NCBI GenBank assembly: GCA_913060875.1 | Contig: CAJXSL010000014.1 | Span: 1 to 64,000, forward strand | Source of the DNA: an uncultured Desulfobacteraceae bacterium | GTDB lineage: Bacteria; Desulfobacterota; Desulfobacteria; Desulfobacterales; UBA5852 | Length of the DNA: 64,000 nucleotides | Direction of reading: 5' to 3' | Part shown: piece by piece, positions 8,430 to 34,290 of the stretch | Layout of the letters: the number at the start of each line of letters is the position of its first letter | How positions within the stretch are numbered: the first letter of the stretch is position 1 | The notes under the pieces: model-generated | Database searches by the model: none | Told to the model about the DNA's origin: nothing | The model's input: only the letters and a program-made list of their open reading frames with translations | Translations under genes and position numbers: made by a program

Positions 8430-8850
8430 TTTGTCTCTTCCTTTACTGATTTGATGGTTTAACCAGAGTTACGCCAACAGCAGCTCTCGATGCATTTGGC
8501 GTGAAAAAATTATTTTAGCTGCACTATAAACAACCGACGATACTTGCTTTTACATAATGATATATGGGTCAAAAACCGGCCGGACTTTAGCCCTTTTGCC
8601 GAAAAATATCCCGACGACACCTCTAAAGGCGGAAATTTTCATTTAAATTCAAATAGATGAATGTTACAGGGGCGGCAAAAAAGGAGGCGGTTTGTATAGG
8701 TGGATTCAGCTTCGGACGGGAGGTTTTCGCGGTTAGCGGGTCGCAACGGCCGATCTACTAATCGCCAGGAAAGAACCTGTTAAATCAATCACCCCAATCG
8801 GTAGAACCTCTCCGGGTTCTCCACCAGAGGTGGCGGGTTTAGGTCAGGGC
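8430..8850. other. Intergenic region with one dispersed repeat
   Basis: No coding frame is convincing here. The part next to 8429 is AT-rich and should hold the minus-strand promoter of the binding-protein gene. Bases 8805-8841 carry a small repeat, ACCTCTCCGG followed by the hairpin CCACC-aga-GGTGG, which recurs at 27378-27414. The rest shows nothing I can interpret. Confidence 0.6.
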
Positions 8851-8893
8851 TAGCCCGGATATTTCACGCGTTCGCGATGAAATATTCGGGCTA
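8851..8893. repeat. Palindromic repeat, complete copy
   Basis: TAGCCCGGATATTTC pairs with GAAATATTCGGGCTA (15 bp, one G-T) around a 13-base loop. It overlaps the stop codon of the broken methyltransferase gene. Related full or half copies lie at 37664-37690, 38153-38172, 55161-55180, 56031-56054 and 59440-59462, always at gene ends or between genes. Confidence 0.75.
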
Positions 8894-10606: not shown

Positions 10607-10727
10607 GATTCAATCCCTGCGGTTAGTGGCCACAATGGCCGTTGCGCTACACACATACACATTATCGCTGTGGCGCTTTTTCCGCAAAACAGGAGGCGGC
10701 AGACAGCCCCACAGGAATATGTTTTGA

Positions 10728-10757
10728 TGCCTTTTCTTTTCCGGAAAAGAAAAGGCA
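10728..10757. repeat. Perfect 30-bp palindrome
   Basis: TGCCTTTTCTTTTCC is followed immediately by its exact reverse complement, with no loop. It lies between the stop of the GNAT gene and the start of the flavoprotein gene, both on the minus strand, and may act as an RNA terminator or insulator. A related but imperfect motif, CGTTTTCTTT...AAAGAAAATG, ends the structured repeat near 28970. Confidence 0.7.
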
Positions 10758-12000: not shown

Positions 12001-12117
12001 TTTCCCATTGTCCCGCGCCGAGCATCGGCGGGGCGGACGGATAAAAGCGCGCGGACTGTCTGAACCCGCCGTAGCCCAAGCGAAGGCGGGTGAGTTTCCG
12101 CGCGCTCCGGCCACGCC
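12001..12117 (+). repeat. Structured interspersed repeat, copy A
   Basis: Shares with 28808-28990 and 34131-34290 the conserved blocks CCGAGCATCGG, GACTGTCTGA and GAGTTTC. In this copy GCGCGCGGA (12047-12055) pairs with TCCGCGCGC (12097-12105), and inside it ACCCGCC (12064-12070) pairs with GGCGGGT (12085-12091), leaving the conserved unpaired blocks CTGTCTG and GAGT facing each other. It directly abuts the parC stop codon. It is not coding in any consistent frame across copies. Confidence 0.8.
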
Positions 12118-17731: not shown

Positions 17732-17894
17732 GCTCGGGTCATCCCATGGCCGTTGGCAAAATCGTCCGGCAGTCCCCCTGCCGTTTAAACTGCGGCAAAT
17801 TAAGACAAAACCGAAATCCTTGTCAAATGAATTAGAACGGAACGGCGGAACCTATCGGGCCCCTCCACCCGAAATGGCGCATTAAGATCTAAAC

Positions 17895-18701
17895 TCAGAC
17901 GGAAGTCTCTCCGGATTCCTGGGCATCCGGCCCCTTGACCACCAGACGTTCCCAATCCCCGGCGGTCCGATCCGAATCCCCGGCCAGCAGCCGGAAAAAA
18001 TCCTCCGGCAGCCGGCGGGACCGCAGGATGCGGCGCTGCTGCCCCGGAGGGTTGGGCAGGTCAAGCTCCCAGGCGTGCAAACCAAGGCGCGTAAAGCCGG
18101 CCCTTTCCCGCAGGTAGCGGAGGGATCGCGGCGATCCATAACGGCGGTCGCCCACCACCGGGTGTTTCGCCAGTTTGGTATGGCGGCGGATTTGATGCTT
18201 ACGGCCGGTCAGGGGAGCACAGGTTACCAGGGTATAATGCTCACTGTGTCCGATCACGTGAAACGCGGTTCGGCTGGCGACCCGTGGCCCCTTCCCGCCA
18301 GGGTGGGTCCGCCCGCCGGCGGCCCGGGTCAGCGGGAAAGACCAGGCGCCCCGGTCACCGGGCGCCCCCAGGCGGCCATGCAAAATGGCCAGATACCGTT
18401 TCGCCACCCGGTGCGTCTGAAACGCCCGGCCGTAGAACGTCAGGGCTTCCGCCGTAGAGCACACCAAAACCAGGCCGCTGGTATCACGATCCAGCCGATG
18501 GGGGGCATGCACCAGGGTCCCCGGTGTAAAGCCGGCCCTGCCGGCCAAATGGCGGTCCCTCGTCAGCAAGGCCTGCACAAGCGAGCAGACATCCCGTCCG
18601 GGATCATTGTGCACGCTGACACCGGAAGGTTTGTCGACCACCAGCCAACCCGGTCCTGTCGCCATCACGCTTTGGTCAATCTGTTCGGCAAAATTTGTCA
18701 T
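17895..18701 (-). CDS. RluA-family pseudouridine synthase
   Basis: This 268-residue protein has the RluA catalytic motif HRLDRDTSGLVL with the invariant Asp, preceded by WLVVDKPSGVSVH and followed by AKRYLAILHG and TGRKHQIRRHTKLAKHPVVGDRRYG, all standard. It lacks an N-terminal S4 domain. The ATG at 18701 is chosen for the ribosome site AAGGGATGAT; the upstream extension would overlap the divergent hydrolase gene and is not family-like. Enzymes of this family isomerise specific uridines in 23S rRNA or tRNA. The Q-I-R-R-H-(T) variant suggests an rRNA enzyme, but the target cannot be assigned. It is divergent from the YheT-like gene, with a 56-base gap. Confidence 0.9.
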   Translation of the reverse strand: MTNFAEQIDQSVMATGPGWLVVDKPSGVSVHNDPGRDVCSLVQALLTRDRHLAGRAGFTPGTLVHAPHRLDRDTSGLVLVCSTAEALTFYGRAFQTHRVAKRYLAILHGRLGAPGDRGAWSFPLTRAAGGRTHPGGKGPRVASRTAFHVIGHSEHYTLVTCAPLTGRKHQIRRHTKLAKHPVVGDRRYGSPRSLRYLRERAGFTRLGLHAWELDLPNPPGQQRRILRSRRLPEDFFRLLAGDSDRTAGDWERLVVKGPDAQESGETSV

Positions 18702-27337: not shown

Positions 27338-27377
27338 AAAAATGAAGGGACAATTCTGCCGCAAAAGATCGGAGTGG

Positions 27378-27414
27378 TAAACCCTCTCCGGATGCACCAC
27401 CAGAGGTGGAGAAC
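27378..27414 (+). repeat. Small dispersed repeat, copy 2
   Basis: AACCCTCTCCGGATGCA followed by the hairpin CCACC-aga-GGTGG, related to 8805-8841. It sits in the 113-base spacer between ATPase and binding-protein genes, where it would lie in the operon mRNA and could influence the relative expression of the binding protein. Confidence 0.55.
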
Positions 27415-27450
27415 ATCGAACCAAACCACATCAAATGAAGGGAGGACATA

Positions 27451-28807: not shown

Positions 28808-28990
28808 TTTTCCCATTGTCCCGCGCCGAGCATCGGCGGGGCGGACGGGATAAAGCGCGCGGACTGTCTGAGCCCCGCTGCAAGCGGGGTGAGTTTCCGC
28901 GTGCTCCGGCCGCACCGACGACGCGCAGGATCAAGCGGGGCACGGGCGTTTTCTTTTGCTTCGTTTTCTTTCCACGTGAAAGAAAATGAA
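28808..28990 (+). repeat. Structured interspersed repeat, copy B
   Basis: Closely matches copy A through CCGAGCATCGG, GACTGTCTGA and GAGTTTC. GCGCGCGGA pairs with TCCGCGTGC (one G-T instead of G-C), and inside it GCCCCGC pairs with GCGGGGT. After the core follow a GC-rich tail and the motif TTTTCTTTCCACGTGAAAGAAAAT, an interrupted palindrome. It occupies most of the 420-base gap between the binding-protein and first permease genes, so it is transcribed within the operon. No other gene is visible in the gap; a run CCTCCACTATAAGCGGAGG at 29039-29057 forms another small hairpin. Confidence 0.8.
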
Positions 28991-29136
28991 GAAACTCTTT
29001 TAGGAAAACTCCCCTGAGCGAAAGAGCCTTTCTGAATCCTCCACTATAAGCGGAGGGTTTAAAATAGAATAAATAAATTCACGGCACCGGCCGGTTACAA
29101 CCGCCGGTGCCATACCCATCCACCCGGAGATTTATT

Positions 29137-34130: not shown

Positions 34131-34290
34131 ATTTTCCCTTTGTCACGAGGCCGAGCATCGGAGGTGCGGCCGAAAAAGACGCGGCGACTGTCTGAGCCCC
34201 GCGATAAGCGGGGCGAGTTTCGGCGCGTCCGGCCGCAGCCCCGACGCGCAGGCGGACCCGAAGGGCTCGTGGCAGGGCGCCTTCTTTTGG
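34131..34290 (+). repeat. Structured interspersed repeat, copy C
   Basis: The most diverged of the three copies, yet CCGAGCATCGG, GACTGTCTGA and CGAGTTTC are kept. The outer helix is ACGCGGCGA against TCGGCGCGT (one G-G mismatch) and the inner helix GCCCCGC against GCGGGGC, so most substitutions relative to copies A and B keep pairing. It lies 70 bases before the FAD-oxidase gene, in its leader if transcription starts upstream. Confidence 0.78.

Follow-up and report, generated by a model that had tools for sequence, protein, structure and literature searches.

The window, which is the first 64 kb of the 154-kb contig C14 of an uncultured Desulfobacteraceae bacterium (host genome 5.88 Mb, 30 contigs), contains three copies of a palindromic repeat, designated A, B and C. 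The motif GACTGTCTGA occurs exactly in each of them, at 12054, 28862 and 34186, on the plus strand each time. Copy A is located at the 3' end of a minus-strand topoisomerase IV A-type gene (PF00521), copy B between the genes for a solute-binding protein (PF01547) and a permease (PF00528), and copy C in front of a FAD-linked oxidase gene (PF02913). These domain matches refine the contexts given in a previous, sequence-only reading of this DNA, which had placed A at the parC stop, B in a sugar-transport operon and C in the leader of a FAD-oxidase gene. In congeners the gene context differs, and no empty counterpart of the copy B site was found there. The features of the three copies are listed in Table 1.

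Table 1. Features of the three repeat copies in the window
Feature	Position	Strand
Copy A: left arm and palindrome tip, without the 3' outer arm and the second hairpin	12008..12112	+
Copy A: outer tip stem, 5' strand GCGCGCG	12047..12053	+
Copy A: conserved internal-loop strand GACTGTCTGA	12054..12063	+
Copy A: apical stem-loop ACCCGCC/GGCGGGT	12064..12091	+
Copy A: conserved internal-loop strand GAGTTTC	12092..12098	+
Copy A: outer tip stem, 3' strand CGCGCGC	12099..12105	+
Copy B: complete nested palindrome TTGTCCCGC...GCGGGGCAC	28816..28943	+
Copy B: conserved tip (GACTGTCTGA, apical stem, GAGTTTC)	28862..28897	+
Copy B: T-rich tract TTTTCTTTT, very tentatively a triplex third strand	28949..28957	+
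Copy B: second hairpin CTTCGTTTTCTTTC/GAAAGAAAATGAAG	28959..28991	+
Copy C: complete nested palindrome TTGTCACGAG...CTCGTGGCA	34140..34274	+
Copy C: conserved tip	34186..34221	+
Copy C: T-rich tract, degenerate second hairpin	34282..34288	+

The blocks that the sequence-only reading had described as common to the three copies were all found in place, and the inner helices (ACCCGCC/GGCGGGT in A, GCCCCGC/GCGGGGT in B and GCCCCGC/GCGGGGC in C) and the outer helix were as it had written them. The repeat that it had delimited at 12001-12117 is real but was understated, being only the tip of a longer nested palindrome. Likewise, GACTGTCTGA and GAGTTTC do face each other in an internal loop, but CCGAGCATCGG, also taken for an unpaired block, is mostly a stem arm, because in copy B the 5' segment TTGTCCCGC..CCGAGCATCGG pairs with the 3' arm CCGACGACGCGC..GCGGGGCA. 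Inward from these outer arms, copy B contains a 5'-side bulge, a stem of ~8 bp, the asymmetric internal loop and an apical stem-loop of a length that varies among copies. Downstream of its 128-nt palindrome lie a T-rich tract and a second hairpin, which together occupy 28949-28991. Copy A has lost the outer 3' arm and the second hairpin, and copy C retains an intact palindrome with a degenerate second hairpin. A profile search also detected solitary fragments of the palindrome-flanking sequences in the window (8768-8864, 10665-10739, 17823-17896 and 27369-27427), all on the plus strand, which probably are relics of the same larger element.

We investigated the abundance of the repeat in the host genome. 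BLAST with copy A yielded 40 scored matches (103 candidates), and the pattern GACTGTCTGA-N(5-35)-GAGTTTC matched 45 times, or 55 times in a relaxed form; the reversed pattern matched 0 times, and a chance origin of the host matches was rejected on this control. Six host contigs (C8, C16, C18, C19, C22 and C30) have an end in a copy or only a few bases from one, suggesting that the true copy number is probably higher. Gene prediction with a home-made gene caller placed 49 of the 51 examined copies outside genes and two inside, at 79% coding. By the same caller, divergent gene pairs flanked 3 of 47 copies, versus 97 of 456 gaps of at least 100 nt. The flanking-gene contexts of these 47 copies relative to the element were ++ in 18, +- in 13, -- in 13 and -+ in 3, so that the upstream gene was codirectional with the element in 31, a mild excess. 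We extracted 44 host copies with their flanks and, once truncated and interrupted parts had been set aside, aligned 41 of the upstream and 38 of the downstream sequences. Flanking hairpins were common to many copies on both sides and were also found away from any pattern match. Five host contigs (C3, C6, C9, C10 and C12; 1.35 Mb) contained 0 pattern matches, with ~12.6 expected (Poisson 3e-6). Flank relics are still present in C3 and C12, and C3 may contain an origin, as its GC skew switches from negative to positive.

A single strand of a complete copy can form a long nested hairpin that ends in a conserved loop. This loop is an asymmetric internal loop, GACTGTYTGA opposite GAGTTTC (in its looser form, TGTYTGA opposite GAGTT), which is capped by a variable apical stem and often followed by the T-rich tract and the second hairpin. 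To examine covariation, a 24-nt form of the core was searched for in 119 listed stretches, which resulted in 76 matches, 75 usable tips and, once near-identical stems were dropped, 33 distinct stems, among which the core is invariant by construction of the search. Standard pairs occupied 81.8% of the cells (shuffled mean 59.6%), 120 cells were changed on both sides (46.2 in shuffles) and the covariation score was 0.537 (0.149 in shuffles), with none of 500 shuffles as high on any of these three measures. Slid structures were at most 46.6% paired, and all four Watson-Crick pairs occurred at seven of the nine variable positions. The two remaining measures lay within the shuffles: 454 of the 500 shuffles had at least as many pairs with both partners changed as the 9 observed, and 485 had at least the 29 further pair types. 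The pairing-preserving stem changes claimed from the three copies thus extend, on three of five measures, over 33 distinct stems from several phyla. Template switching can keep the arms of a palindrome matched without a selected structure, and covariation of the arms alone is therefore no proof of function. What template switching leaves unexplained is the conserved asymmetric loop. Partner copies in Bacteroides contain looser cores (TGTYTGAGC..GCGAGTT), suggesting that the required part is probably smaller than the core used for searching.

A comparison with Rfam, which the sequence-only reading had asked for, returned no family matching the element: there was no match for the window at the gathering threshold, for copies A and B at E up to 5 or for 18 of the 119 other loci, and a search around copy B at E up to 5 gave weak matches only, outside the palindrome. 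A known RNA family was rejected on these results.

Scanning a sequence collection with the exact core yielded at least 119 stretches, for 80 of which titles are known. Among the matches listed were Nitrospirae, Desulfobacterales and other Deltaproteobacteria, Bacteroides, Dokdonia, Rufibacter, several Firmicutes, Propionigenium (Fusobacteria) and Gammaproteobacteria. Among these listed matches, one exact core form recurs in several phyla, on stems that differ. About two chance matches were estimated by hand for the whole collection, and a single match in an odd taxon therefore may be due to chance. The loop motif occurring in several phyla on stems that are nearly free suggests recognition by a widespread protein or RNA partner. 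The distribution is patchy: a pattern match was found in 9 of 40 relatives and in 11 of 296 genomes of the phylum, the host included in both counts, with six of the 11 containing at least three matches and the copy number differing greatly between genomes. The viral collection contained the exact core in 2 contigs, and in plasmids copy B had one partial match of 44 nt and the Thioalkalivibrio unit described below had none; a viral or plasmid element was rejected.

We next consider the orientation of the copies. Using 60 host stretches, all but one of ~20 kb and most chosen around copies, we compared 51 distinct copies with the local GC skew. The written strand was the C-rich strand in 48 of the 51 (p=2e-11), and orientation agreed with third-codon skew in 43 of 47. 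Agreement with the majority local gene direction was found in only 23 of 51 (p=0.58), and a gene-direction effect was rejected as the source of the orientation. New here is that the orientation agrees with local GC skew and not with local gene direction; that all copies in the window lie on the plus strand, as had been claimed, fits this genome-wide replication-strand bias. The G-rich strand of a replicon is the template for lagging-strand synthesis. In the host, the strand assignment being by GC skew with the origin not located, the G-rich strand carries the reverse complement of the written sequence. Orientation was coherent within host contigs (44 of 46; hand count, with the majority orientation chosen per contig). 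In the congener G003, contigs with at least two listed copies were uniform (18 of 18; hand count, probability 0.0005), and on its contig C73 one partial copy detected by BLAST was opposite to the others. The single-contig relative G015, in which copies are ~200 nt long by eye, changes skew sign near 0 and 2.3 Mb and showed weak polarity, with 31 of 43 copies in agreement (hand count; p=0.005), or 28 of 40 when four near-tandem copies were taken as one. The best dnaA match in this genome (G015:C1:1232232) is near neither GC-skew switch and therefore provides no origin marker there. Polarity was not seen in the MAG G338, in which 7 of 12 copies agreed (12 of 13 matches tested; weak skew).

In Thioalkalivibrio and Bacteroides the copies occur as inverted pairs facing apart, an arrangement that is not the rule in the host. 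The Thioalkalivibrio genome G336 has 16 of its 17 pattern matches in eight pairs, in each of which a minus copy is followed by a plus copy at a distance of 332-414 bp, and the unit as a whole is therefore without polarity. This unit is ~790 bp long with inverted ends of ~275 bp; units have common ends at many places, and a sister genome contained 92 matches to it, whole and partial. We searched for empty sites by comparing the joined flanks of the eight G336 sites with 26 genomes, G336 included. At the site G336 C3:225 kb, one match spanned the joined flanks in G348 and in G354, and the flanks were 784-1092 bases apart in G343, G346, G352, G362 and G366. Re-alignment of G348 at this site showed the unit to be absent, with ~30 nt between what by eye seem to be two gene ends; at another site, a terminal relic of the unit remains in G346. 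Two of four candidate empty sites (L376 and L381) lay on the other strand and were not confirmed by a second alignment; nor did this alignment confirm G354 or a G360 site. The alignments thus support insertion or loss of the unit at one confirmed orthologous site. A target-site duplication was not definable from the empty-site matches, which were at most 78% identical. By eye, the inverted units in L359-L366 may sit between convergent gene ends, a simple ORF check being ambiguous.

A search for a mobilising enzyme around the copies found none. The most widespread neighbour protein family was found at only 9 of the 119 listed loci (up to 8 kb each), and as regards a parental element with the same ends, these loci of at most 8 kb showed no widely recurrent neighbour protein. 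Y1_Tnp had 8 matches in the host and was detected in 8 of the 11 element-bearing genomes tested, being absent from G333, G334 and G338 (two isolate drafts and one MAG). Of the 296 genomes of the phylum, 212 contain Y1_Tnp and 11 the pattern, so the presence of Y1_Tnp is uninformative. Examination of ~1.5 kb on each side of 24 Y1_Tnp loci revealed no credible element, only one chance-looking core string in L303, and a REP borne by a neighbouring Y1 gene was rejected.

Among known repeats, the element is closest in behaviour to REP sequences and BIMEs. In the literature, REPs are described as 20-40 bp long, tagged with GTAG or CGTC and present in 8 phyla (PMC3733652), or as 21-65 nt long with a tetranucleotide 5' of the foot (PMC6006769). 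The element resembles REP/BIME in its many, mostly intergenic palindromes, its inverted pairs in some groups, its unpaired stem bases and its taxon-specific stems. It differs in length, copy B measuring 128 nt and copies in relatives being longer, and in its 5' side, where the tetranucleotide before TTGTCCCGC is not a tag of the GTAG/CGTC type but CCCA in 27 copies, CCCT in 11 and TCCA in 1 (39 of 51 copies matched in this test). A REP-associated Y1 transposase gene is flanked by the repeat, whereas none of the 24 examined Y1 genes was beside the element. Because length, 5' tag and gene association all differ, we class the element among palindromic interspersed repeats and not as a REP. The sequence-only reading had considered three possibilities, namely a structured RNA, a selfish REP-like element and a protein-binding hairpin. 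The second of these fits best by behaviour: copies are numerous and mainly intergenic, occur patchily and, in two groups, as inverted pairs, and one orthologous site is confirmed to be empty. In REP length, the GTAG foot and the Y1 neighbour it does not fit. Like MITEs and other repeats with terminal inverted repeats, the element forms short non-autonomous inverted-repeat units, with ends of ~275 bp in Thioalkalivibrio; it differs in a tip motif common to several phyla. No parental insertion sequence was found in the loci of up to 8 kb, and no target-site duplication in the diverged empty-site alignments. It shares end hairpins with IS200/IS605 single-strand elements and their small derivatives, for which PMC6006769 reports insertion into the lagging-strand template, but no TnpA gene was found beside it. 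According to the same paper, IS608 and ISDra2 enter and leave the lagging-strand template, the transposase recognises their end hairpins, and REP sequences are structures similar to these hairpins (PMC6006769). No paper on the repeat was found in open-licence PMC text, a result that does not show the repeat to be undescribed.

The explanation that we favour, and to which we give about an even chance, is that the repeat is a non-autonomous element that acts as DNA and is inserted, or kept, with a polarity tied to replication. The element most likely works as folded single-stranded DNA. The hairpin would form when the template of the lagging strand is single-stranded, and one protein would recognise the conserved loop together with the shape of the stem, not its sequence, which would explain why stems differ between taxa and the loop is constant. 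By analogy with the end hairpins of IS608 and ISDra2 and with the bulge of the E. coli REP stem, the loop would be the recognised feature, and the protein that reads it would insert the element at intergenic sites, with the fork setting the polarity. The composite inverted unit of Thioalkalivibrio and Bacteroides would consist of two copies facing apart. A broader version is more doubtful: that these are pan-bacterial single-strand-DNA elements whose identity is the TGTYTGA/GAGTT loop on an arbitrary palindromic stem, and which a putative widespread recombinase inserts at forks by reading shape and loop. The strong GC-skew polarity makes it testable whether a single-stranded lagging-strand template drives insertion, and an enzyme, if found, would represent a further route for the spread of palindromic repeats in bacterial genomes.

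Selection against one orientation gives the same bias as polar insertion, and the bias could be selective instead. The palindrome would then spread without orientation preference and the other orientation be purged, for example because a hairpin on the lagging-strand template, or the tract plus second hairpin, blocks replication or gets cut. We consider this unlikely, though it draws on the same polarity data and fits the strand asymmetry of the tail, in which a pyrimidine tract precedes a purine/pyrimidine hairpin. Skew agreement was equally high in host copies that have a close sister (23 of 25) and in the rest (25 of 26), with two of the three exceptions falling in the sister group, which weighs mildly against it.

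Rather less probable is a structured RNA, acting in cis or in trans, that has its functional core in the GACUGUYUGA/GAGUUUC loop, where a tandem GA beside the apical stem may resemble kink-turn-like loops. The covariation around a conserved internal loop would suit such an RNA, as would the codirectional upstream gene in 31 of 47 copies. An RNA reading is disfavoured because orientation follows the replication strand and not gene direction; moreover, 16 of the 47 copies are not codirectional with the upstream gene, the 119 listed loci have no common neighbour gene, and Rfam gave no match.

We regard it as improbable that a Y1 (RAYT-like) transposase mobilises the repeat in trans as an oversized REP/BIME. 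Y1_Tnp does occur in the host and in most of the tested element-bearing genomes, and the inverted pairs resemble BIMEs. According to PMC8266576, E. coli TnpA-REP relies for its activity on a mismatched bulge within the stem of the REP; earlier work had found this bulge to be needed, and it was less strictly selected in the assay of that study. The Y1 loci, apart from the string in L303, lack the core within ~1.5 kb, no GTAG precedes the palindrome, three of the 11 element-bearing genomes have no Y1 match, and Y1_Tnp is far more common in the phylum than the pattern. A polar chromosome mark useful to the host, such as sites steering segregation or repair, would account for polarity with GC skew but is very improbable, since most relatives have no match, copy number varies widely between genomes, and an orthologous site is empty in Thioalkalivibrio.

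Within the DNA element that we favour, the T-rich tract may conceivably form a triplex with its own hairpin. In 54 cross-genome cases the mirror match between tract and hairpin was 6.94, as was the direct match, and in 41 pyrimidine-rich cases the values were 7.61 and 7.34. The mirror match exceeded that of swapped partners in both sets (0 of 500), with no excess in the host copies (230 of 500 swaps as high). Mirror and direct values being close, the two symmetries are not separated. The intrastrand triplex motifs of bacteria described in PMC4666352 are likewise abundant repeats, and a T-rich tract adjoining a purine/pyrimidine hairpin could in principle form a triplex as they do, but that study dealt with a G/C-rich motif.

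A second fold-back of ~190 nt, of the type AACCGGTCGAT...ATCGACCGGTT, was observed in three host loci (L004, L011 and L028) and five congener loci (L074, L075, L082, L086 and L087). By eye, it seems to occupy the same point of the right arm in copies from different species, and it may represent an optional domain or a nested element.
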